64,000 nt of DNA, from the NCBI RefSeq assembly GCF_009932475.1, contig NZ_BJOV01000003.1:1-64000 (forward strand), read 5' to 3'. Each line of letters opens with the position of its first letter. Position 1 is the stretch's first letter. Made by a program: the position numbers and the translations under genes. Of the stretch, positions 7,911 to 63,770 are shown piece after piece. The notes beneath the pieces are model-generated. The model worked only from the letters and a program-made list of their open reading frames with translations. It was not told the origin of the DNA and did no database searches. The DNA comes from Gordonia spumicola (GTDB lineage: Bacteria > Actinomycetota > Actinomycetes > Mycobacteriales > Mycobacteriaceae).

Positions 7911-9052
7911 GCCGCTCCGCACTGTCCGAGATGGACGACTACCCGATCCACCAGGTCGCCGAGGTGGTGCGGCACGTCGGGACGTCGGACCGGAACTTCT
8001 ACGACCGCTACTACTTCAACTGCCACGGCGACATGCGCGGCGACAGCCCCGAGCCGTGGCTGATCGTCGGACTCGGCGTGTACCCGAACCTCGGCGTCGT
8101 CGACGGCTTCGCGGTGGTCAGACACGGTGACGATCACATCGTCGTCCGGGCATCGAAAGCGTTGGGCGACAACCGGAACGACCTCACTGTCGGACCGCTG
8201 ACGGTGAAGGTCCTCGACGGCCTGCAGCGACTGCAGGTGTCGCTTGAGCCCGGCCACGGCGACGTGTCGTTCGACCTGGTCTTCGACGCCGACGGCCCGG
8301 CCGTCCTCGAACCCCGGCACTATCAGCGGCAGTTGGAGCGGGTCACCTTCGACACCATGCGGTTCGTGCAGACCGGCGGCTGGACCGGTTCGTTGACGGT
8401 CGACGGCGAGGACTTCGACGTCCAGCCCGACACGTGGCGCGGCAACCGCGACCGCTCGTGGGGCGTGCGGCCCGTCGGCGAGGCGGAGCCGCCCGGTCGT
8501 CGCGCCGCCGAGACCGACGCCGCGTCGTTCTTCTGGATCTACTCGGTGATGCGGTTCGAGGACTACGTCATCACGGTCATCGTGCAGGAGCTGCGGACCG
8601 GCGAGCGGATCATGGGCGACGCTCGGCGCGTGTGGAACGATCCGGCACGCGATCCGGAATGGCTCGGCCGGGTGGAGCACGAGGTGGAGTTCGTCTCCGG
8701 TGGGCGTGAACCGTCCGGAGCCACGCTGCGTTTCGTGAAGCCGTCCGGTGAGACGATCTCGGTGCGCTGCGCGCCGAAGGTCGCGAACTTCATCGGCTTC
8801 GGCACCGGATACGGGCTCGAGCAGGACTGGCGTCACGGCATGTGGCAGGGCGACGAGAAGGTCCAGGCGCTGCGCAACAAGGTCTCCGAGCTGGATCCGA
8901 CCATGAAGATGTTCTGCCCCGTGGACCACTACGCGAACTTCACCCTCGTCGAGGGCGACGCCGAGTCGCACGGCGACGGGTTGTTCGAGTTCGCGGTCAT
9001 CGGACCGCACGATCAGTACGGGTTCGCCGAGTACGTCGACGTCGCGCCATGA
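7907..9052 (+). CDS. Conserved protein of unknown function, partner of the phosphotransferase
   Basis: 381 residues; the start ATG overlaps the upstream stop by 4 nt. I do not recognise a named enzyme. There is no signal peptide or TM segment. The protein looks beta-rich, with many charged, Trp- and Tyr-containing strands, for example SDRNFYDRYYFNCHGDMR near the N-terminus, DTWRGNRDRSWGVRP about residues 175-189, and FFWIYSVMRFEDYVITVIV in the middle. Such an alternation suggests a lipocalin- or CrtC-like barrel, but that is only an impression. Its constant coupling here to an APH-type kinase under a KstR-like site suggests a role in metabolism of a hydrophobic substrate. Confidence 0.75.
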   Translation: MSRSALSEMDDYPIHQVAEVVRHVGTSDRNFYDRYYFNCHGDMRGDSPEPWLIVGLGVYPNLGVVDGFAVVRHGDDHIVVRASKALGDNRNDLTVGPLTVKVLDGLQRLQVSLEPGHGDVSFDLVFDADGPAVLEPRHYQRQLERVTFDTMRFVQTGGWTGSLTVDGEDFDVQPDTWRGNRDRSWGVRPVGEAEPPGRRAAETDAASFFWIYSVMRFEDYVITVIVQELRTGERIMGDARRVWNDPARDPEWLGRVEHEVEFVSGGREPSGATLRFVKPSGETISVRCAPKVANFIGFGTGYGLEQDWRHGMWQGDEKVQALRNKVSELDPTMKMFCPVDHYANFTLVEGDAESHGDGLFEFAVIGPHDQYGFAEYVDVAP

Positions 9053-9055
9053 CCG

Positions 9056-9114
9056 TCGAGAACTTCGGCACTCGCGGCCGCGCTGAGCGCGGCTGCGAGT
9101 GCCGAAGTTCTCGA
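9056..9114. terminator. Long perfect hairpin, bidirectional terminator
   Basis: Arms TCGAGAACTTCGGCACTCGC and GCGAGTGCCGAAGTTCTCGA are fully complementary. The stem continues inward through a GC-rich segment with a short TGA loop. It starts 3 nt after the stop of the rightward gene and ends 1 nt before the stop of the leftward tetR, so it serves both. Confidence 0.85.
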
Positions 9115-9115
9115 G

Positions 9116-9766
9116 TCAGCGCATTCCGCGCCCGGCGGCGAGGACGAACTCGGCCATGTGATCGACGAGTCGGTCGACGGTCCGCGGATCCGGGCTGTAG
9201 TCGACGCGGTCGAGTTCGTCTCCGATGAGCCCGAAGAGGCCGCCGATGACGGCCAGCGCTATCGAGTCCACCGCTTCAGGGAGGTCGTCGTTGTACATCT
9301 CCCAGACGCTGATGACCAGCTTGGACGCCGCGCGCCGGTTCTCGCGGCGCTGCTTGTCCACCTGCACCGTCAGGCCGCCCGCCACCCCGAACGTGACGAT
9401 CGAGACGCGCGGGTCGTCGATCAGCGCGTGCGCGAGGGCCCCGACGAGCGCGCGCACCATCGCGTCCTCGGACTGGTCGCCGGTCGGCATCGCCGCGACG
9501 ACCCTGGAAAAGGTCCGATCGGTGCACCGCCGGAGAAGCGCGACGTAACACTCCTGCTTCGACCGGAAGTGCTCGTAGAACGCCTTGTTGCCGACGAGAG
9601 CCCGCTGGCAGAGCGCTTCGATCGAGGTCTTGGCGACACCGTCGGTCGCGAACATCTCGAGCGCGGTGTCGAGGATGACCTCGCGGCGTCGCTCCGCGCG
9701 TTCGGCGGCGTCCAGACCGAGGATCACTCGTCCGCTGTCGTCAGAGGTATCGGTCATGCGTGCCAC
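9116..9766 (-). CDS. TetR-family regulator, probable controller of the 6.8-9.8 kb genes
   Basis: 216 residues from GTG 9766 (an in-frame ATG follows at 9757). The helix-turn-helix is about residues 44-64 (KTSIEALCQRALVGNKAFYEHF). A TACTGT -10 box lies 7 nt before the GTG, so the mRNA is probably leaderless. The operator-like motif at 9776-9789 overlaps that box and is shared with the phosphotransferase promoter at 6746. The simplest reading is an autorepressor that also represses the convergent phosphotransferase/unknown pair. It is not obviously KstR itself. Confidence 0.82.
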   Translation of the reverse strand: MARMTDTSDDSGRVILGLDAAERAERRREVILDTALEMFATDGVAKTSIEALCQRALVGNKAFYEHFRSKQECYVALLRRCTDRTFSRVVAAMPTGDQSEDAMVRALVGALAHALIDDPRVSIVTFGVAGGLTVQVDKQRRENRRAASKLVISVWEMYNDDLPEAVDSIALAVIGGLFGLIGDELDRVDYSPDPRTVDRLVDHMAEFVLAAGRGMR

Positions 9767-45218: not shown

Positions 45219-46643
45219 ATGACGAACCAGTCCGACAGATCGGGCACCAGCCTCGGCCCGTACCGCCTCGTTCGACTCCTCGGACGAGGCGGGATGGGCG
45301 AGGTGTACGAAGCCGTCGACACGTCCAAGGACAGGACTGTCGCCCTCAAACTCCTTCCTCCCCACCTGGCCGACGACGCCGAGTTCCGGGCACGCTTCAT
45401 GCGCGAGTCCCAGACGGTCGCCCGCCTCAACGATCCTCACGTGATCCCGATCCACGACTTCGGCGAGATCGACGGACTGCTGTTCCTGGACATGCGGATA
45501 GTGCACGGCCGCGACCTGCGCAGCATGCTCTCCGCCGGGGCGCTGCCCGCGGATCGGGCCGTCGCCCTGATCACCCAGATCGCCGGAGCACTCGACTCCG
45601 CGCACGCATCCGGACTCCTGCATCGCGACGTGAAACCCGAGAACATCCTCGTCGACGCGAACGACTTCGCGTACCTCGTCGACTTCGGCATCGCTCAGTC
45701 CGTGGGCGCCACGCGGCTCACCGCGACCGGCGCGGCGATCGGATCGTTCGTCTACATGGCACCCGAGCGATTCGGCGAGACCGTCGATCTCACTCCGGCG
45801 AGCGACGTGTACTCGCTGGCCTGCGTGCTTTTCGAAGCCGTCACGGGTGTTCCGCCGTTCAGCTCGACGAGCTATGAGCAACTCATCACCGGGCACCTGA
45901 CGCGCCCGGTCCCGCCGACGGGCACCGTCCTGGATCCCGTCATCGCCGCGGGCACAGTCAAAGACCCCGCGGGGCGCACCTCATCGTGCAGGGAGTTCGC
46001 GGCCGCCGCGAACGCGATGCTCACCGGCGGCAGGCCTCCGACGCCGATCCCCGTCGCCCATCCCGCGCCCACCGTCCCCGCCACGTCGCATCGAGGCCGG
46101 ACCTCGATGATCGCCGCCGCGGTCGCGATCGCCGCGCTCCTGGCGGGCGCGGGTGCCGTCTGGTTCGCGGTACAGGCCTCCTCGCCCGACCCGACGCCGA
46201 CCGCCGCGTCATCCGCTCCGCCGACGACCACGACGCCGCCCCCGACCCAGGCGACGACGACGGTCACCCAGACCCAGGTGCTCACCCCCGACCCGACGGT
46301 CACCGCCGTGACGCCCGCCTCGGCCGATCTCGGCTTGAGCACGCCGATCAGCCGTCCCCCATGCGACGGCCGGACGATCCTCATCGTCGCGAGCGTGACG
46401 ACGCCGGGCGAGTACGCCCAGGGTGTCGCGCGGGCCCTTGCCGACAATCCCGGAGCGGAGTACCTCCGGACCGACGAATCGTGCTCATCGCTTCGGCAGT
46501 CGTTGAACGGCAACCCGATCTACGCCGTGTACTTCGAGGGGGACTCACTCGCCGACACCTGCGCACTCCACGCGCGGATGGGAAGCTCGACCAATGCGCG
46601 TCGGCTGGACGACTCCACGCCGCCGAACACGAACATCTGCTGA
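45219..46643 (+). CDS. Transmembrane Ser/Thr protein kinase, sensor type A
   Basis: 474 residues, probably leaderless (TACGCT, 7 nt, ATG). The kinase domain at about 14-275 has the Gly loop GRGGMGEVYEA, VALK, catalytic HRDVKPEN, DFG and APE, so it should be active. A single TM is at about 297-318, followed by a Thr/Pro-rich linker. The extracellular domain of about 95 residues starts CDGRTILIVASVTTPGEYAQ and ends with four spread Cys residues (CDG, ESCSS, DTCAL, final C). This domain is shared only with the next gene. The ligand is unknown. Confidence 0.92.
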   Translation: MTNQSDRSGTSLGPYRLVRLLGRGGMGEVYEAVDTSKDRTVALKLLPPHLADDAEFRARFMRESQTVARLNDPHVIPIHDFGEIDGLLFLDMRIVHGRDLRSMLSAGALPADRAVALITQIAGALDSAHASGLLHRDVKPENILVDANDFAYLVDFGIAQSVGATRLTATGAAIGSFVYMAPERFGETVDLTPASDVYSLACVLFEAVTGVPPFSSTSYEQLITGHLTRPVPPTGTVLDPVIAAGTVKDPAGRTSSCREFAAAANAMLTGGRPPTPIPVAHPAPTVPATSHRGRTSMIAAAVAIAALLAGAGAVWFAVQASSPDPTPTAASSAPPTTTTPPPTQATTTVTQTQVLTPDPTVTAVTPASADLGLSTPISRPPCDGRTILIVASVTTPGEYAQGVARALADNPGAEYLRTDESCSSLRQSLNGNPIYAVYFEGDSLADTCALHARMGSSTNARRLDDSTPPNTNIC

Positions 46644-46663
46644 GCGGGTGAAGTCGGCTCCCG

Positions 46664-46692
46664 TTCGTTGAGCGAGCGAAGCGAGTCGACGC
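46664..46692. repeat. Dispersed GAGCGAGCGAAGCGAGTCGA repeat
   Basis: Intergenic copy of a short repeat related in inverted form to 12730-12744 and 31999-32012. It lies between the two tandem kinase genes; the remainder of 46644-46773 holds the second kinase promoter. Confidence 0.5.
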
Positions 46693-46773
46693 GTCGTACC
46701 AGGTCATCGTGCCGTGTCGAACGGGGTGTGCACGTTCGTTCACACCGGGAATCACTCATCTAGGCTGTTCGGC

Positions 46774-48288
46774 ATGACTGTCGCAGCCGATCGTTCCGGC
46801 GCCGCACTCGGCCCGTACCGCCTTCTCCGACTGCTCGGCAAGGGCGGCATGGGCGAGGTGTACGAGGCGCACGACACGGTCAAGGATCGGAACGTCGCGC
46901 TGAAGCTGCTGCCGCCGCACCTCGCGGGCGACGAGCAGTTCCGCGCCCGGTTCCTCCGGGAGTCGCAGACCGTCGCGCGCCTCAACGATCCGCACGTCAT
47001 CCCGATCCACGATTTCGGCGAGATCGACGGCCTCCTGTACCTGGACATGCGGATCGTCCACGGCCGTGACCTGCGGAGCCTCATCGACGAGGGGCGGATC
47101 GACCCCGAGCGCGCGGTGTCGTTGATCGCGCAGGTCGCCGGAGCCCTGGACGCCGCACACAGATCGGGCCTCCTGCACCGCGATGTGAAGCCGGAGAACA
47201 TCCTCGTCGACGCCAACGACTTCGCGTACCTCGTCGACTTCGGGATCGCCCAGTCGGCGGGGGCCACCCGCTTCACCGCGACCGGCGCCGCGATCGGCTC
47301 GTTCGCGTACATGGCTCCGGAACGGTTCGGCGACGACGCCGCGCTCACTCCGGCAAGCGACGTCTACTCGCTGGCCTGCGTGTTGTTCGAGGCGGTCACC
47401 GGCGCTCCCCCGTATCCGTCGACGAGCTACGAGCGGATCATCTCCAGCCACCTGACCCGGCCGATCCCGCCGACCGGAACCGTCCTCGACCCGGTGATCG
47501 CGGCGGGGACCACGAAGGATCCGGCGCAGCGCATCGCATCGTGCGGGGCGTTCGCCGACGCCGCGAAGGACGCACTCGCGGGGCGGCACACGCCGACGCT
47601 CGTGGCCCCGATCCCGCAGCCCGCGCCGATGCAGAGCCCGTATCCCCAACCCGTCGGCTATCCGGTGCCGTATCCGACGGGGCCGCAGCCGACCCGATCG
47701 TCAGGCGGGAAGACGGCGCTCATCGCAGCGGCGGTCGCGGCGGTCACGCTGCTGGCGGCGGGCGGCGCGTTCTGGCTGCTGACGGACGGCTCCGACGACG
47801 ACACCGCGACCACCGCGGCCGCCGTCACCTCCACCGGGGCGTCGCAGACTCCCGGCGAACTGCCGACCGTCACCCAGACCGTTCCCGGCGAGCCCGAGCA
47901 GACGCAGACCGTCCAGACCACGGCGACGCGCACCACGCCGGACGCCGCGCCCGCACGTGCCCGCGGCGACCTCGGCCTGCCGACGCCGATGACCGTGCCC
48001 TCGTGCGACGGTCGGACGATCGTCATCGTCTACAACGCGACGACACCCGGTCAGTACTCGCAGGAGATCTCGTCGGCGCTCGCGTCGAATCCCGGCGCGA
48101 AGTACCTGCGGACCGACAACTCCTGCTCGTCGATGCGCCAGGCGTACGACGACGGCAGCGCCATCTACGCCGTCTACTACGAGGGTTCGTCGCTCGCCGA
48201 CACCTGCGCGACCAAGGCCCGCATCGGCGGAGCCGTCTACGCGCGACGCCTCGACGACTCGACACCCGTCGGAACGGAGATCTGCTAG
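46774..48288 (+). CDS. Transmembrane Ser/Thr protein kinase, sensor type A, tandem paralogue
   Basis: 504 residues from ATG 46774, 7 nt after a TAGGCT box. The kinase domain is about 80 percent alike to the preceding gene by eye (GKGGMGEVYEA, HRDVKPEN, DFGIAQS). The juxtamembrane region is Pro/Tyr-rich (QSPYPQPVGYPVPYPTGPQP), the TM lies at about 316-336, and the extracellular domain (about 410-504) starts CDGRTIVIVYNATTPGQYSQ with the same Cys pattern. The pair arose by tandem duplication; the sensor domains have kept their cysteines but differ at the surface. Confidence 0.92.
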   Translation: MTVAADRSGAALGPYRLLRLLGKGGMGEVYEAHDTVKDRNVALKLLPPHLAGDEQFRARFLRESQTVARLNDPHVIPIHDFGEIDGLLYLDMRIVHGRDLRSLIDEGRIDPERAVSLIAQVAGALDAAHRSGLLHRDVKPENILVDANDFAYLVDFGIAQSAGATRFTATGAAIGSFAYMAPERFGDDAALTPASDVYSLACVLFEAVTGAPPYPSTSYERIISSHLTRPIPPTGTVLDPVIAAGTTKDPAQRIASCGAFADAAKDALAGRHTPTLVAPIPQPAPMQSPYPQPVGYPVPYPTGPQPTRSSGGKTALIAAAVAAVTLLAAGGAFWLLTDGSDDDTATTAAAVTSTGASQTPGELPTVTQTVPGEPEQTQTVQTTATRTTPDAAPARARGDLGLPTPMTVPSCDGRTIVIVYNATTPGQYSQEISSALASNPGAKYLRTDNSCSSMRQAYDDGSAIYAVYYEGSSLADTCATKARIGGAVYARRLDDSTPVGTEIC

Positions 48289-57316: not shown

Positions 57317-58210
57317 TCAGCAGCGGCCCTTCGGGAGCTTGGCGATGTTCTTGTCGAGCCAGTCGGCGACCTTGTTGAGGACGGCGACGCCCGTGCCCAT
57401 CGGGTCGCCCGAGTAAGTGCTCATGGCGACGGCCGTCTGACTGCCGTCCTTGTGCGTGATGAGCCCGAGCTGGCGCACTTCGACGCCGCCCTGGTCACCG
57501 GGGCCCCAGCCGCCCTTCACGGACGTCTTCTTCGGCGCGTCCATCGTCCGGATCCCCCACTCCTGGTTGTCCGCTACGCGGCCCATCAGGCGGACGATCT
57601 CCTTGCTGTCGTCGAGACAGGGCAGATTGGAGCCGAATGTCGCGGCGCCCTCCAGCGGCCACGGGGTGAGGCCGAAGGTCTCGTCGTCGGCCTTGATCTC
57701 GACGACCCGCGTCGTGGTGTCACCGCCGTCGCGGAACACGGCCTCCACCTGATTCCGCCCGGAGGACGGCGACCCGAGCGACTTGCGGAGCGCGAGAGCG
57801 GCGTCGTTGTCGGAGTCGACGATCGCGTTCTCGATCTCGGGCATCCACCCGTTCTTCCGCTTGGCGGCCAACGCGAGCGGCACCTTGATCGTCGACCACG
57901 CGACCCGTGGTGTCTGGTCGCCGAACGTGTAGACGTCGCCGCCGCCGACGGGCGCCAGCGCGACACCCACGTCGGCCGGGAATCCCTGCCGAGTGAAGCT
58001 CGCCGCGAGAACCGCTTCCGCACCGGTCGGAACCGTGGACGTGCTCGACGCGGCCGTCGCCGGACTGCTCGCGGCGGTCGTCGCCGCCGGCTGTCCCGAT
58101 TCGGCGGAGTCCCCGCCGTCCGCACAGGCCGCCAGGCCCGCCGTCGAGATCGCCGCGACGACCGCCGTGGCGAAGGCGCGACGGATCGTCGCAGATCGCA
58201 GAGTGTTCAC
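57317..58210 (-). CDS. Serine hydrolase lipoprotein, beta-lactamase fold (first)
   Basis: 297 residues. The lipobox is STAGLAAC, with the Cys at about 28, and a Ser/Thr/Ala-rich spacer follows. Class A beta-lactamase-like motifs are STIK (SxxK, about 107-110), SDN (about 132-134) and KGG in place of KTG (SVKGGWGP). The omega-loop Glu of true beta-lactamases is not evident, so an endopeptidase, esterase or inert cell-wall role is as likely as antibiotic hydrolysis. It begins 10 nt after the kinase gene on the same strand. Confidence 0.82.
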   Translation of the reverse strand: MNTLRSATIRRAFATAVVAAISTAGLAACADGGDSAESGQPAATTAASSPATAASSTSTVPTGAEAVLAASFTRQGFPADVGVALAPVGGGDVYTFGDQTPRVAWSTIKVPLALAAKRKNGWMPEIENAIVDSDNDAALALRKSLGSPSSGRNQVEAVFRDGGDTTTRVVEIKADDETFGLTPWPLEGAATFGSNLPCLDDSKEIVRLMGRVADNQEWGIRTMDAPKKTSVKGGWGPGDQGGVEVRQLGLITHKDGSQTAVAMSTYSGDPMGTGVAVLNKVADWLDKNIAKLPKGRC

Positions 58211-58220
58211 CGGAATCCGC

Positions 58221-59804
58221 TCAGTAGATGTAGACGACGGCCTGATTGCCGCCGCGGCAGGCGACGATGCCCGCGTACGGGCCGCACGTCATCACGTAGT
58301 TCTTCATTTGCTGAGGAGCCCAGGCGTTGATCGTCCGCGACTCGCCGAGCGCCCCGCTCTGGACGTACGAATCGCGCACGTTCCGGGCGAACTCGCAGCC
58401 CGTCCACTGCGGATAGCCGGTGCCGACGCCCGAGTAGCACTCCTGGTTGTCCGACGGCGGGGGCCCCGGCGTGTACGTCGAGGTGGTCGGCGTGGTGACC
58501 GTCTGGCCGGAACCGCTGTCGGCGACGTCTGCCGCGTCCGTCGGCGACTCGCCCGCCTGGGTCGTCGTCGCGTCGTCGGAGCCGAGCTTGTCGGCGGCCA
58601 GCCAGGCTCCGCCGCCGATGAGGGCGGCGACGAGGATGCCGATGAGCACCATCAGTGCGGTGTTGGTGGCATTGCGTCCGGGTGCGGGCACCGGGCCGCT
58701 CCCGTACGGGTACGCCTGTCCGGGGTACATGCCGACCGGCACCGGGCCGCTCTGCAGGTGGACCGGGCCGCTCGCGACCTGGTGCGGCCCGCTGGCGACC
58801 GTTGCGGCGTATCCGGCCGACGCGACCATCGTCTGACTGTGCGGACCACTGTTCACCGGACCGCTCGCGACCGGCGGGCTCGGGACGTCGGGAACCTTCT
58901 TGAGCATGGTGTTCGCGGCGTTGTCGACCGCGACGATCGACGTCTGCGCGACCGCGACGTCCGGCGTCTCGCCGTCCAGTGCTCGGCGGGCCGCGCGGGC
59001 CAGATCGCCCGCCGACTGGCATCGATCGGCCGACTTCTTCGCCAGGCCCCAGGCGACGACGGCGTCCATCGGGCCGGTGACGGACGGATTGACGCCCGAC
59101 GCCGCGGGCACGTCGTCGATCAGGATGCCGCGCATGACCGTCGACACCGAGTCGCCGGGGTACGGCTGACGGCCGGTGAGCAGTTCGAAGAAGAGAGCCG
59201 CGAGCGAGTACACGTCGGACGACGCACCGACCTCGCCGTCCTCGAACTGCTCGGGCGACATGTAGGCGACGGAGCCGATGGCCGTGCCGGTGTGCGTCAG
59301 GTGAGTGTCGTCGGCGGCGTGCGCGACGCCGAAGTCGACGAGGTAGGCGAAGTCGGCACTCGTGACGAGGACGTTCTCCGGCTTCACGTCACGGTGCACG
59401 AGACCGGCGGCGTGGGCCGCGTCGAGAGCCGCCGCCACCTGCTCGATGAGGCCGACCGCCTCATCCATGTCGAGGGCGCCCCGGTCGCGCAGGACGGCAC
59501 GGAGATCGCGGCCGTCGACGATGCGCATGTCGAGGAACAAGGTGGACTCGATCTCGCCGAAGTCGTGGATCGGAATGATGTGCGGTTCCCCGAGGCGGGC
59601 GAGCGTCTGGCATTCGCGACGGAAGCGCTCCTGGAACGTCGGATCCTGCGCCACCTGCGCGTTCAACAGCTTCAACGCCACCTCGCGGTCACGCGACGTG
59701 TCGTGCGCCCGGTACACCTCGCCCATGCCGCCGCGGCCGAGCAGTTCTTCGAGCCGGTACGGCCCGAACGTCTCGCCGACACGGTTCGGCGTGTTGTCAC
59801 CCAT
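58221..59804 (-). CDS. Transmembrane Ser/Thr protein kinase, sensor type B
   Basis: 527 residues with a GGAGA ribosome site. The kinase domain at about 14-270 has GRGGMGEVYRA, HRDVKPEN, DFGVAHA and SPE. An intracellular linker repeats SGPV/SGPH units (about 310-375). The TM is at about 390-410. The extracellular domain (about 450-527) has NQECYSGVGTGYPQW, NVRDSYVQSG, and the ending GIVACRGGNQAVVYIY. This sensor recurs in the kinase at 62334 and, without a kinase, at 60943. It is coupled to the serine hydrolase downstream. Confidence 0.92.
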   Translation of the reverse strand: MGDNTPNRVGETFGPYRLEELLGRGGMGEVYRAHDTSRDREVALKLLNAQVAQDPTFQERFRRECQTLARLGEPHIIPIHDFGEIESTLFLDMRIVDGRDLRAVLRDRGALDMDEAVGLIEQVAAALDAAHAAGLVHRDVKPENVLVTSADFAYLVDFGVAHAADDTHLTHTGTAIGSVAYMSPEQFEDGEVGASSDVYSLAALFFELLTGRQPYPGDSVSTVMRGILIDDVPAASGVNPSVTGPMDAVVAWGLAKKSADRCQSAGDLARAARRALDGETPDVAVAQTSIVAVDNAANTMLKKVPDVPSPPVASGPVNSGPHSQTMVASAGYAATVASGPHQVASGPVHLQSGPVPVGMYPGQAYPYGSGPVPAPGRNATNTALMVLIGILVAALIGGGAWLAADKLGSDDATTTQAGESPTDAADVADSGSGQTVTTPTTSTYTPGPPPSDNQECYSGVGTGYPQWTGCEFARNVRDSYVQSGALGESRTINAWAPQQMKNYVMTCGPYAGIVACRGGNQAVVYIY

Positions 59805-59893
59805 CGAGTGTCTCCTTCTTCACAGCCTTGCAAGGCTAGGCCGTGAAGACGACCGATGTGCAGTCGACATCGCCCCGTTCGGGAAATTCCCCC

Positions 59894-59911
59894 GTTCGAA
59901 TTAATCCGAAC
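59894..59911. other. AT-centred near-palindrome between serine hydrolase and kinase genes
   Basis: GTTCGAATTAATCCGAAC is self-complementary at 16 of 18 positions and begins 4 nt downstream of the hydrolase stop. It may be a terminator or an operator for the kinase gene. Confidence 0.4.
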
Positions 59912-59914
59912 AGA

Positions 59915-60766
59915 TCAGCAGGCTCCGACAGGGAACTTCGACAGATTCGCTCCGATCCATGTGCCGACGCGGTTGAGCATGACGGTGCCGTCGTCGAACG
60001 ATCCGCTGGTCGGCAGGGCGGCCATGCTGACCGCGAACGCTCCGCGCGGAGTGGTCACGACACCGAGCTGACGGACCACGTACTTGCCCGTGGAATCCGA
60101 TGCGGGTCCCCAGCCGCCCTTGACCGCGGTGGTGACGCCGCGCCGCTTGAGCGTCTGGACTCCCCACTGCTGATTCGACTCGACCACCGCCATGTGTCCG
60201 AGAACGCGCCGCGCGTCGGGCATGCACTGCAGGTGCGCGCCGAAGCGGGACTGCCGCGCGAGAGTCCACTGGGTGGCCCCCGGGTAGCTGGCCGGCCTGT
60301 CCGCCTGCGACGCGACGTGCGTGCCCGTGTCGTGGCCTTCGCGGAGGACCGCGGTCACCTCGTCGACGGCACGCCTTTCGGTGCGCATCGAATCCCACAG
60401 TCGTTCGGCCGCGTCGTTGTCGGAACGCCGGATCGCGGCGCGGATGTCGGGAGCCACCCGGGAACCGTTGACGCGCTCGGCCGCGATCGACACCGGAACC
60501 TTCAACGTCGACCACGCCCTGGCCGTCTTGATCGATCCGAACGACATCGTCTGATCACTTCCGACCGGCGTGATCGCGAGGCCGACAGCACCGGGGAGAC
60601 CGCGTGTGGCCTTGGTGAAGCTCGGCGCGAGTTGCGCTCGTGAGGCCGGCGGCGTCGCGCCCAGATTCGGCAGTCCGGGCAGTGCCGCCGCCGTTCCCGC
60701 CCCGATCACCGTCCCGCAGGTCAGGACGAGCGCAGCACATGATGAGACAACCCCGCGACGAATCAC
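59915..60766 (-). CDS. Secreted serine hydrolase, beta-lactamase fold (second)
   Basis: 283 residues. A Sec signal peptide spans about 1-29. Motifs are STLK (SxxK, about 86-89), SDN (about 112-114) and KGG (AVKGGWGP), the same set as in the 57317-58210 protein. The two share KGGWGP, RQLG and a C-terminal Cys, but one is lipid-anchored and this one is soluble. Together they flank the type B kinase on the same strand, so kinase and wall enzymes may be regulated jointly. Confidence 0.84.
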   Translation of the reverse strand: MIRRGVVSSCAALVLTCGTVIGAGTAAALPGLPNLGATPPASRAQLAPSFTKATRGLPGAVGLAITPVGSDQTMSFGSIKTARAWSTLKVPVSIAAERVNGSRVAPDIRAAIRRSDNDAAERLWDSMRTERRAVDEVTAVLREGHDTGTHVASQADRPASYPGATQWTLARQSRFGAHLQCMPDARRVLGHMAVVESNQQWGVQTLKRRGVTTAVKGGWGPASDSTGKYVVRQLGVVTTPRGAFAVSMAALPTSGSFDDGTVMLNRVGTWIGANLSKFPVGAC

Positions 60767-60942
60767 ACAAACCCCTTCAGCAACATCCGTAACAGAGATT
60801 CACGCTAGCCACTCGCTCGTCGGCCACCAACTCGCGTGGCCCACCCGCAACGCCTACGTTGTCGGACTGTTATCTCCCTGGCGAGCCATCCGAACGGCCT
60901 ACGCGAGAGGTCATACGCCCCATCACGGGCTAGTCTGACCTC

Positions 60943-61470
60943 ATGTCCACATCTGGGTACAACGAGTACCAGCACTATCCGCCGACAATGCACGGCGGAC
61001 ACAGGCCCCCAAACCGCCGCACCCCGCTGATCATCGCGTTCACGGTTGCTGGGATCGCGCTCATAATCGCGATCGTCGCGGTAGCGGTCGCAGTTCTCAA
61101 GGCAAACGACAGCAACGAAGCTTCGCCCAGCACACAGGTGACCACGACGACCATCCAACAAACCGCCGCGGACGCACCTCAAACGCAGGCGACGACAGCA
61201 CCACAGCCGACAGTCAGCGACGTCCGCGGTTCCCTGGCAAGCCAGGGCTACGTGTATCCGTGCGGCTCGTCGGTGTTTCGGAACAGCGAGCAGACTCAGT
61301 GCGGCTGGGCTGAGAATGTCCGTCAGGCGACACTCTCACGCGGATCGTTCAGTGGCGTTCCGATCTACAGTCCTTACCTCGGGTACACCGTCTCAACGAC
61401 GTGCTCCGACCGGGGTTCGTACTACATCTGCCAGGGCCAGACGGTGAATACGATCGCAGTGATCAAGTGA
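60943..61470 (+). CDS. Membrane protein carrying the type B sensor domain without a kinase
   Basis: 175 residues, leaderless type (TAGTCT, 6 nt, ATG). There is a short cytoplasmic N-terminus with several Tyr and Pro residues, a TM at about 27-50 (LIIAFTVAGIALIIAIVAVA), a Thr/Gln-rich linker, and an extracellular domain at about 95-175. That domain (TQCGWAENVRQATLSRG, then YYICQGQTVNTIAVIK) lines up with the sensor domains of the kinases at 58221 and 62334, including the Cys positions. It may compete for the same ligand or pair with the kinases. It overlaps the amidase start (GTGA). Confidence 0.85.
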   Translation: MSTSGYNEYQHYPPTMHGGHRPPNRRTPLIIAFTVAGIALIIAIVAVAVAVLKANDSNEASPSTQVTTTTIQQTAADAPQTQATTAPQPTVSDVRGSLASQGYVYPCGSSVFRNSEQTQCGWAENVRQATLSRGSFSGVPIYSPYLGYTVSTTCSDRGSYYICQGQTVNTIAVIK

Positions 61471-62312
61471 CGAGTGTCAACTTCCGAGAGTCTGCCGCAC
61501 TCGCGCTCGTCGTCGGATTCAGCACGCTGCTGGCGGCGTGCACGAGCCCGCAAGACTCGGGGAGCCCCGTAAAGACGGTGACCGTGACGACGACCGCAGC
61601 CTCATCGTCAACGACTGCGGCTCCTCGCAGCAGTGCTGATTCGGGATGCCGCGCGCCCGTCGTGGCACTCGACCCGGGCCACAACGGCCAGTCGATCTCC
61701 GTCTTCGACAAGATCACCGGTGTCGAGATGCGCGACTACCCGAACGGAGCCGAGGACGCCGACGTGTTCGCTGTGGCAACTACTGCGAAGCGTGCCCTCG
61801 AACGTGCTGGCTACACGGTGGTCCTCCTGAAGAAGAACACCAGCGAAAGCGTGACATATCGCCAGCGAGTCGACCGCGCCGAGCGAGCAGAAGCAGATAT
61901 CGGCATCAGCATCCACACATCTCCTGGCGAGCACTCCGTCTTCGACCAGCGTCTCGGCGGGTACCGAGAAGGTACAGGCGCCGACGGCCAAACCCTTCGC
62001 GTCACATTCAAGAACGCAGACCTCGCCCGGAAGAGCGGGCGCCTGTCCTCAAAGTTCGCGACTGCTCGAAGCCAGGTCGAAGGCCGTCAGGTAAACGTCG
62101 TGCAGAACAACTTCGGTGGGCGCGCGCCGCTGTGGGCTGGCGACCTTCCGATGATCTCTCTGATCTCGCAGAAGGTGCCGTGGGTGTACAGCGAATTCGG
62201 AACTGTGGACGGTGGAGGCGGGTCGAACCCTATCGGCCCAACGGGACGATCACTGTACGCACGGTCCATAGTCGCGGCGACAAAGGCTGCGGTCCCGAAC
62301 ACCTGCGAGTGA
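61467..62312 (+). CDS. N-acetylmuramoyl-L-alanine amidase lipoprotein (amidase_3)
   Basis: 281 residues from GTG 61467. The lipobox LLAAC (Cys at about 23) precedes a Ser/Thr-rich spacer. The zinc ligands of amidase_3 are seen in ALDPGHNGQ (His), in the acidic segment after VEMRDYPNGAEDAD, and in GISIHTSPGEH (His); the catalytic Glu lies in VYSEFGTVDG. It cleaves the amide between peptide stem and muramic acid. Translational coupling to the sensor-domain protein suggests regulated wall hydrolysis. Confidence 0.88.
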   Translation: MTSVNFRESAALALVVGFSTLLAACTSPQDSGSPVKTVTVTTTAASSSTTAAPRSSADSGCRAPVVALDPGHNGQSISVFDKITGVEMRDYPNGAEDADVFAVATTAKRALERAGYTVVLLKKNTSESVTYRQRVDRAERAEADIGISIHTSPGEHSVFDQRLGGYREGTGADGQTLRVTFKNADLARKSGRLSSKFATARSQVEGRQVNVVQNNFGGRAPLWAGDLPMISLISQKVPWVYSEFGTVDGGGGSNPIGPTGRSLYARSIVAATKAAVPNTCE

Positions 62313-62333
62313 CACCCCCATCCTCGCACGTCC

Positions 62334-63770
62334 TCAGTAGATATGAACCTCCGCGTTCGTTCCGCCCCGGCAGATCACGATCCCCTGTTCAGGATTGCAG
62401 GCCATCGAATACGTTGTCCCTGTCGTGGGTGATGACGCGTACACCATGCGACTCTGCCCCATCGGCCCGGCCGCGAGATATGCGGCGCGAACATTGATCG
62501 CAAATCCGCAGGTGGTCACGCCTGTCCCGACGCCAACCCCGTCAGCGCACTCGACCGAGCCCGGCGGAGGTGTGGCCGCCGTTGTTTGAGCAGGTTCGAT
62601 CGTGTTCGTGATCGTCGTCGTGGACGATCCTGCGTCGTCGATCGATCCACTGCTTCGAAAGCCGAACCAGTAGACGGCTAGCCCGATAAGAGCCATGATC
62701 AAGACCCCGATTGTCAGCGCCAAGACGAGGTTCGTCATCCGGTTGTCGCGAGTGGGAATGGGTCCGGTGTAGCCAGGATACTGGCCGTAACCCGGCTGCG
62801 GCCCCGTGAATGAATGCGGCCCCGAATACACCTGCGGTCCCGAGTATGAGATGCGCTCGGTCGCGGCGTGTGGACCCGAGTACTGCTGCTTCACCAGCGA
62901 CGGGCCGACCATCGTCCGATTGAACGCGGGGTCCGGCTCCACTCCGTCGAGAGCGGCGCGGGCCGCCTCCGCGAGGCCGCCCGCGGTCGCGAACCTCGCG
63001 GCGGGCTCCTTGGCGAGGCCGCGCCGGACCACGGCGTCGAGCGCGTACGGGACGTTCGGACTGATCGAACTCGGGGCGGGGACCTCATTGAGGACGGTCG
63101 CTTTGACGACGGCGCTCACCGAATCGCCCGGATACGGCTGACGGGCCGTGAGCAGCTCGAAGAGGACCGCGGCCAGCGAGTACACATCGGACGCCGGGCC
63201 GATCGGCACGTTGTCGAGCTGCTCGGGCGCCATGTACGCGATCGAACCGACGGCCGTGCCGGTGCGGGTCAGGTGCGCGTCTCCCTCGTGGTGCGCGATG
63301 CCGAAGTCGACGAGGTAGGCGAAACCCGCGGGCGTGACGAGAACGTTCTCGGGCTTCACGTCGCGGTGCACCAGACCCGCCTCGTGCGCCGCGTCGAGCG
63401 CGGCCGCCACCTGCTCGATGATCGCCACCGCTGCCGCAGGCTCCATCGCACCCTCGGACCGCAGAATCGACCGCAGGTCACGACCGTCGACCAGCCGCAT
63501 GTCGAGGAAGAGGACTCCGTCGATCTCGCCGTAGTCGTGGATCGGGATGATGTGCGGCTCACCGAGCTTCGCGACGGCCTGCGACTCCCGACGGAACCGC
63601 TCCTTGAACGTCTCGTCGTCGGCGAGGTCTGCCTTGAGCAGTTTCAACGCGACCTCGCGATCGCGCGCCGTGTCGAACGCTCGATACACCTGGCCCATGC
63701 CGCCCTTGCCGATGACGCCGTCAAGGCGGTACGGGCCGAAGCTGGAGTCTTCCGTCATGGGGACGATCAT
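62334..63770 (-). CDS. Transmembrane Ser/Thr protein kinase, sensor type B (second)
   Basis: 478 residues from ATG 63770 (ATG 63758 is an alternative). The kinase domain at about 10-265 has GKGGMGQVYRA, HRDVKPEN, DFGIAHH and APE. The linker has repeated SGP units (YSGPHAATERISYSGPQVYS, about 295-335). The TM is at about 350-372. The sensor domain (about 405-478) begins SVECADGVGVGTGVTTCGF and ends GIVICRGGTNAEVHIY. By eye the sensor part is less GC-rich than the kinase part, which hints at domain exchange. It is convergent with the amidase gene, 21 nt apart. Confidence 0.92.
   Translation of the reverse strand: MIVPMTEDSSFGPYRLDGVIGKGGMGQVYRAFDTARDREVALKLLKADLADDETFKERFRRESQAVAKLGEPHIIPIHDYGEIDGVLFLDMRLVDGRDLRSILRSEGAMEPAAAVAIIEQVAAALDAAHEAGLVHRDVKPENVLVTPAGFAYLVDFGIAHHEGDAHLTRTGTAVGSIAYMAPEQLDNVPIGPASDVYSLAAVLFELLTARQPYPGDSVSAVVKATVLNEVPAPSSISPNVPYALDAVVRRGLAKEPAARFATAGGLAEAARAALDGVEPDPAFNRTMVGPSLVKQQYSGPHAATERISYSGPQVYSGPHSFTGPQPGYGQYPGYTGPIPTRDNRMTNLVLALTIGVLIMALIGLAVYWFGFRSSGSIDDAGSSTTTITNTIEPAQTTAATPPPGSVECADGVGVGTGVTTCGFAINVRAAYLAAGPMGQSRMVYASSPTTGTTYSMACNPEQGIVICRGGTNAEVHIY

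Follow-up and report, generated by a model that had tools for sequence, protein, structure and literature searches.

A four-cysteine domain recurrently paired with a beta-lactamase-fold protein in Gordonia spumicola and its relatives: a tentative split receptor for Ser/Thr kinases

A block of six genes at positions 57317–63770 of the window, that is, of the whole 64,000-nucleotide stretch analysed here from contig C3 of the 4.9 Mb genome of Gordonia spumicola, encodes two transmembrane (TM) Ser/Thr kinases (kin1 and kin2), a kinase-less protein (sens), two proteins related to beta-lactamases (bla1 and bla2) and an amidase (ami). Both kinases and sens end in the same four-cysteine domain, and this domain together with a hydrolase-fold partner of the bla1 family is a recurrent unit, the kinase being one way of using that unit. 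The explanation that accounts best for these observations, to which we assign a probability of about 0.37, is that the domain would read the ligand-bound state of the lipoprotein, and that the fused kinase would relay this state as Ser/Thr phosphorylation.

All six open reading frames (ORFs) were recovered where the initial annotation had placed them. The block is composed as follows, with TM helices and lipobox motifs judged by eye.

57317–58210, minus strand: bla1, lipobox LAAC with Cys29, predicted class A beta-lactamase fold
58221–59804, minus strand: kin1, Ser/Thr kinase with TM helix and C-terminal four-cysteine domain (58224–58439)
59915–60766, minus strand: bla2, paralogue of bla1 that lacks a lipobox Cys and is likely secreted
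60943–61470, plus strand: sens, sensor-only protein with TM helix and divergent four-cysteine domain (about 61261–61467)
61467–62312, plus strand: ami, N-acetylmuramoyl-L-alanine amidase (Amidase_3), lipobox LAAC
62334–63770, minus strand: kin2, Ser/Thr kinase with TM helix and C-terminal four-cysteine domain (62337–62549)
60767–62906, no strand: stretch low in guanine plus cytosine (GC), likely a recombined cassette that comprises sens, ami and the C-terminal half of kin2

The sens and ami genes overlap by four bases (GTGA, 61467–61470), and 10 nt (58211–58220) separate kin1 from bla1. The gene junctions behind the earlier claim of two translationally coupled pairs were found as described, and from these junctions we infer the coupling itself.

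The four-cysteine domain and its gene partner

The domain spans approximately 70 residues and forms the very C-terminal end of each of kin1, kin2 and sens. Its four cysteine places are conserved across the Gordonia copies, and in the other genera the first cysteine is, by eye, spaced differently. That the two kinases and the kinase-less protein share a C-terminal domain, as the initial annotation had stated, was confirmed by a profile that recovered it three times; a scan of the own genome at E ≤ 0.01 returned these three copies and no others, though the profile was built from the same three and therefore scores them by construction. By blastp, sens aligned to kin2 with an E-value of 9e-7 over a stretch that includes the TM region, and a 30-row profile, likewise including the three window copies, scored the sens copy at E 3.5e-21. 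No match to the domain was found in Pfam, NCBIfam or the PDB sequences, and no known wall-binding domain was recognised in it. Fold searches (Foldseek, VIA) with its AlphaFold model gave no clear relative, which does not imply that the fold is new. Lacking a Pfam or NCBIfam match, the domain is ready to be described as a new family.

Carriers of the domain make up 45 of the 59 Gordonia genomes and 247 of the 401 genomes of the family, spread over 18 of its 30 genera; the family counts are lower bounds, with 14 candidates scored per genome. A sample of the whole phylum contained the domain in 16 of 396 genomes, 7 of these outside the family. At two Gordonia loci the sensor gene may be broken: in genome G020 (contig C6, about 326047–326258) the match is divided between two overlapping frames, and in G. 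jacobaea (L163, near 8001) query residues 24–71 alone were matched and the partner gene reads on.

The gene neighbourhood was assessed in a named set of the 80 loci most similar to the query in one scan of reference genomes, covering Gordonia, Dietzia, Williamsia, Nocardia, Rhodococcus, Rhodococcoides, Aldersonia, Corynebacterium, Janibacter, one record titled Kitasatospora and some metagenome-assembled genomes (MAGs). Domain ORFs numbered 82 in 78 of these loci, and as 3 lay too near a contig end, 79 copies could be tested. In 60 of the 79, a same-strand gene of the bla1 family follows within 400 nt, with a further 11 copies having it within 3 kb, 5 farther away and 3 not at all. Where adjacent, the partner belongs to this one family and lies directly downstream, in nine named genera. 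A recurrent link between the sensor and a gene of wall-enzyme fold, on which the initial annotation had staked its proposal, is thus strong, extending by record titles over Gordonia and eight other genera.

Larger stretches, read for 38 of the 44 other Gordonia carriers (all except G020, G026, G028, G035, G040 and G055), gave the same picture. Besides the window, a partner follows the domain in 38 of 39 Gordonia stretches from 38 genomes, the exception (L062) being a contig edge; of two extra kinase-less Gordonia copies, one (L119) has no partner in 13 kb and the other (L120) has one. In a second set of 38 stretches, from outside Gordonia, a same-strand partner was present in 27. These stretches share genomes with the named set, and the counts are not additive. 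For kinase-less copies farther removed from the query the domain–partner link is weaker, since only 13 of 23 (one of them with the partner upstream) have a partner, compared to 12 of 13 kinase-fused copies; both contig-cut copies (2/2) have one as well.

The other genes around the pair are far less constant. Among 20 neighbour genes scanned at 7 loci, one was an amidase gene of G. asplenii, and 17 of the remaining 19 were varied and mostly metabolic or housekeeping, an LpqN-type lipoprotein and a histidine kinase being included, while 2 of the 19 had no Pfam match. It is therefore the pair, where present, that is conserved, and not the region.

Variations on the arrangement were seen at individual loci. 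In two Nocardia species (L174 and L192) a single beta-lactamase-fold gene lies between two sensor kinases of the same direction, and in Nocardia ignorata (L150) an FdhD/NarQ-type gene (8510–9319, plus strand) separates the sensor kinase from the partner; in other Nocardia the gap between the two is 1.4–2.5 kb. The locus from the record titled Kitasatospora arboriphila NRRL B-24581 (L197) is Williamsia-like, and the strain name is probably wrong.

The beta-lactamase-fold partner

The proteins encoded by bla1 and bla2 score below the 22-bit Pfam beta-lactamase cut-off (19.5 and 15.3 bits, respectively). Among named homologues, those nearest to bla1 come from Gordonia. A 90-member alignment was assembled from 88 of 113 homologue matches (25 thinned by hand) together with bla1 and bla2, and its profile matched 161 PDB sequences at E ≤ 0.001, the best at 1.5e-9; the best 60 of the 161 were beta-lactamases or the protein LRA-5. 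The AlphaFold model of bla1 had a predicted local distance difference test (pLDDT) value of 88.8, and structure search assigned this model to the class A beta-lactamase fold. The kinship of bla1 and bla2 to beta-lactamases is accepted because of this profile and the predicted bla1 fold.

The motifs of the superfamily are found in bla1 as S106xxK109, S133DN135 and K232GG234, the last in place of K-T-G in both bla1 and bla2. Seven motif residues (S106, K109, S133, D134, N135, K232 and G234) are invariant in all 90 sequences, as are W105, G180, Q216, W235, G236, R246 and Q247. The distance from SxxK to SDN is 29 residues shorter than in the BlaC-type PDB chain that was aligned first. An equivalent of the class A residue Glu166 was not found at positions 165–188, where Glu occurs in no more than 21 of the 90 rows at any position, and the column facing the presumed Glu166 of the BlaC-type chain, which is the last of the alignment, is mostly Arg. 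An ordinary beta-lactamase could be ruled out as a matter of membership: there is no conserved Glu166, and the NCBIfam class A model gave 17.3 and 11.2 bits for bla1 and bla2 against a cut-off of 200. The family keeps SxxK, SDN and KxG in 90 of 90 sequences and has no equivalent of Glu166, so that the partner looks, as judged from its residues, more like a binder of penicillin or D-Ala-D-Ala than like a beta-lactamase. An SxxK superfamily protein built in this way could be acylated by penicillin or bind D-Ala-D-Ala with slow release, or it could be a DD-peptidase.

The best Foldseek match of bla1 was LRA-5, at 20% identity over the aligned part. LRA-5 is described as a naturally occurring protein of class A fold that lacks the deacylating Glu166; a crystal structure with ceftazidime is reported, minimum inhibitory concentrations were the same as those of controls, and the activity is called biologically insignificant (PMC12777564). 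The LRA-5 abstract mentions no partner domain (PMC12777564), in which it differs from bla1.

The paralogy of bla1 and bla2 proposed initially was verified (38.6% identity over 246 amino acids). In the partner tree, bla2 falls in a separate Gordonia clade (15 rows, support 100), so the duplication is old, and at 30 of 39 other Gordonia loci there is a gene nearer to bla2 than to bla1. A third beta-lactamase-fold paralogue is present elsewhere in the genome (contig C5, about 1716543–1717388; L201 8475–9389, plus strand). It is 47% identical to bla1 and by eye TM-anchored, and no sensor domain or kinase was matched among the ORFs called in the 18 kb read around it.

Kinases, kinase-less forms and the amidase cassette

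Both kinases matched the Pfam Pkinase family (kin1 at E 2.2e-44, kin2 at E 6.6e-45) and display the active-type Ser/Thr motifs HRDVKPEN and DFG. Among 25 kinase-domain matches in the genome, one of them under the Pfam cut-off, the four-cysteine domain occurs in just kin1 and kin2. No PASTA repeats were found in either by a Pfam search at E ≤ 1. The best NCBIfam model for both kinase domains was that of StpK7 (MSMEG_1200 of Mycobacterium smegmatis; PMC13355554), though at 354.4 and 358.4 bits they remain well below its equivalog cut-off of 900 and the kinase part alone matches; no phage-defence role like that of StpK7 is claimed, the similarity being confined to the kinase domain. Two more Ser/Thr kinases are encoded in tandem elsewhere in the window (45219–48288, plus strand), with a different cysteine-containing C-terminal ectodomain that had no Pfam match at E ≤ 0.01.

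Fusion to a kinase is not a constant property of the domain. Fused copies in the named loci come from Gordonia, Williamsia, Nocardia and one Aldersonia. Copies lacking a kinase come from Dietzia, Rhodococcus, Rhodococcoides, Corynebacterium, Janibacter, a single Williamsia and the species Gordonia aichiensis, G. sputi and G. otitidis. The partner follows the domain within 400 nt at these kinase-less loci wherever the contig permits, and no related kinase was found within the flanks read in Dietzia, Rhodococcus, Corynebacterium and Janibacter. Across a tree built from 76 partner sequences (19 of the 80 named loci having been removed by hand as near-copies) the label switches between kinase and kinase-less several times, 7 by the least count, which is somewhat too high: at least two 'afterSolo' labels, those of L136 and L156, stem from sensors truncated where a contig begins. 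Two adjoining ORFs encode kinase and domain separately in Nocardia rhamnosiphila (L166) and in a MAG from Nocardia (L171); the split in L166, whose close relative L173 is fused, may have arisen recently or reflect a sequencing error. A sensor-only protein is thus no one-off architecture, as kinase-less forms are common. In G. asplenii, a sensor kinase is followed by a sensor-only lipoprotein (L044 8911–9381, minus strand; L130 8253–8723, plus strand; lipobox by eye), a beta-lactamase-fold gene and an amidase gene, in that order.

In the window, sens is paired with an amidase gene instead of a beta-lactamase-fold gene. The ami protein matched Pfam Amidase_3 at 35.6 bits (cut-off 27) and keeps His, Glu, His and Glu at the motif places, as do all five copies compared (5/5, the window's included). 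Within Amidase_3 it is distant from the AmiC/Rv3717 type, scoring 20.2 bits against 335 with the Rv3717 model, and its best PDB match was AmiC at E 0.008. Of the 59 Gordonia genomes, 12 have an amidase gene of this kind; it adjoins the locus in 5, lies about 17–21 kb away in 3 and is on another contig in 4. The amidase of the initially proposed neighbourhood does recur, then, but its link to the locus is a loose one.

A comparison with G. malaquae (L056), where the order is kin2, bla1', bla2, kin1 and bla1 in one direction, suggests how sens and ami arrived. The window has the same order, except that bla1' is absent and the convergent ami–sens pair stands in its place. Positions 60767–62906 have a GC content of 0.624, compared to a window mean of 0.683, and are the lowest 2.1-kb stretch; only 2 of 1238 sliding windows were equally low, both overlapping it. 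The GC content at third codon positions (GC3) is 0.73–0.74 in the low-GC genes, 0.82 in bla2 and 0.89–0.91 in bla1, kin1 and the kinase half of kin2. Compared with its two nearest relatives, of the G. malaquae type, kin2 is 89.5–90.6% identical in the kinase half and 62.0% in the sensor, a lag of 27.5–28.6 points. The corresponding lag averaged 8.5 points and never exceeded 25.5 in 30 further pairs whose kinase identity was similar. Taken alone, the lag of kin2 falls only just outside the range of comparison. The simplest reading is that a recombined cassette likely brought a new kin2 ectodomain together with ami and sens.

A possible split receptor and its alternatives

The conserved unit is a predicted membrane-anchored protein ending in the four-cysteine domain, usually followed by a lipoprotein of predicted class A fold, and both proteins of the pair would be located on the outer side of the membrane. 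As an antenna, the lipoprotein would act by binding D-Ala-D-Ala wall peptide or a beta-lactam as a slow acyl-enzyme or non-covalently; the domain, as reader, would contact the lipoprotein and respond to its ligand-bound state; and the kinase, where fused, would provide the output by phosphorylating cytoplasmic targets. In the window, kin1 and bla1 form the standard pair, bla2 is the second paralogue, and kin2 is without the lipoprotein gene that comes after it in G. malaquae. The fullest form of the proposal is possible, though doubtful as a whole: a split penicillin receptor for a Ser/Thr kinase, in which a deacylation-deficient class A-fold lipoprotein would capture D-Ala-D-Ala peptide or beta-lactam as the antenna and a four-cysteine reader not described before would drive the TM kinase, the pair being kinase-free in Dietzia, Rhodococcus, Corynebacterium and Janibacter, and ectodomains and wall-hydrolase partners being swappable as cassettes. 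If true, this would provide a testable receptor–ligand pair, and could explain how wall damage or beta-lactams are noticed.

Several results weigh against the reader-and-lipoprotein interpretation. The named set leans to close relatives of the query. For 8 of its 79 sensors the 3 kb downstream contain no partner, although at L174 and L192 the partner lies just upstream. In the second set, 11 of 38 stretches, 10 of which are kinase-less, have none within the 13 kb that were read. The domain model, a helix and strands with a pLDDT of 79, is of middling quality. Position 161 of the partner, before the omega loop, carries Glu in 46 and Asp in 26 of the 90 sequences (acidic in 72/90); it is read as preceding the Glu166 place, from sequence rather than from a residue-level structural superposition. 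SxxK, SDN and KxG without Glu166 also fit a DD-carboxypeptidase, and the partner may accordingly act as an enzyme and not as a receptor. Finally, a specific co-evolution of the sensor with the adjacent bla1, looked for by distance correlation in 27 Gordonia loci, was not found: the adjacent partner was not favoured (r of 0.480 for sensor and bla1 vs 0.610 for sensor and bla2), with a bootstrap difference ≤ 0 in 941 of 1000 replicates, which counts mildly against direct contact; so do the kinase-less copies that have no partner close by.

The strongest rival takes up the enzymatic possibility and deserves serious, if tentative, consideration. Here the lipoprotein would be an active DD-carboxypeptidase or endopeptidase, with the domain as its anchor, activator or inhibitor and the fused kinase controlling the enzyme, not the reverse. 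The catalytic SxxK motifs, needless in a pure binder, are invariant in 90 of 90 sequences, and kinase-less domains are common and often still paired, which fits the role of an enzyme's partner better than signalling. What speaks for a receptor instead is the position of the domain at the very end of a TM kinase in Gordonia, Williamsia, Nocardia and one Aldersonia, this C-terminal end being the place of the input domain in known bacterial receptor kinases.

Rather unlikely, but still to be weighed, is that the four-cysteine domain binds wall fragments itself, in the fashion of PASTA domains, with the hydrolases only making or removing the ligand and no contact between the proteins being required. 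The recurring amidase (adjacent in 5 of 12 carriers) is consistent with this, as two types of hydrolase beside one domain would fit a shared ligand; so are the correlation test, which gave no sign of specific pairing, and the lack of a nearby partner for 10 of the 23 distant kinase-less copies. A domain that needs no particular protein is harder to reconcile with an adjacent partner of a single family, directly downstream in nine named genera, and with the failure to recognise any known wall-binding domain in it.

The initial annotation had cast sens as a decoy or co-receptor, which would titrate the ligand of kin1 and kin2. Although sens retains the layout of TM helix plus domain, and in G. 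asplenii a kinase directly precedes the sensor-only lipoprotein, partner gene and amidase, this is now improbable. Kinase-less forms cannot generally be regarded as decoys derived from a kinase: this form precedes a partner gene in four named genera with no related kinase in the flanks read. Moreover, in an alignment of 83 copies (80 stretches, drawn from 76 of the 80 named loci, and the three of the window) sens is the most divergent, keeping 11 of 26 conserved columns, the fewest of all, which makes binding of a shared ligand doubtful; among its matches there is, besides sens itself, one close relative (P0002, 67%). A chance or hitch-hiking neighbourhood without functional link, for which the 8 of 79 named and 11 of 38 second-set copies lacking a nearby partner and the correlation test might be cited, is ruled out as very unlikely because the pair recurs, adjacent and on the same strand in 60 of 79 copies over nine named genera amid otherwise varied neighbours.

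The closest known parallels lie in systems of different composition. No described equivalent of the kinase, domain and partner system was found in the open PMC literature, subscription papers being mostly outside its coverage. BlaR1 and MecR1 likewise use a penicillin-binding fold on the outer face as input to a transmembrane signalling protein, as is proposed here, but in the window the fold is class A-like and resides in a separate lipoprotein, and the output is a Ser/Thr kinase rather than a metalloprotease; a Pfam search at E ≤ 1 listed no peptidase domain in the six proteins, which thus lack the one-polypeptide design of BlaR1/MecR1. The actinobacterial lipoprotein LpqB, which is linked to the MtrAB two-component system, is similarly encoded with a sensor kinase, though this is a histidine kinase and LpqB does not have a beta-lactamase fold. 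With the PknB/Stk1-type PASTA kinases, kin1 and kin2 share a cytoplasmic kinase, a single TM helix (by eye) and a C-terminal extracytoplasmic domain; the kinase domains partly match the family model (311.1 and 313.6 bits against an NCBIfam cut-off of 450), whereas the ectodomain belongs to no recognised family and contains no PASTA. Wall sensing by actinobacterial Ser/Thr kinases is known mainly for PASTA domains, and the four-cysteine domain would, if the proposal is true, be a second kinase input domain, unrelated to PASTA and recurrently accompanied by a gene for a protein of penicillin-binding fold; the domain itself is present in 247 of the 401 family genomes.

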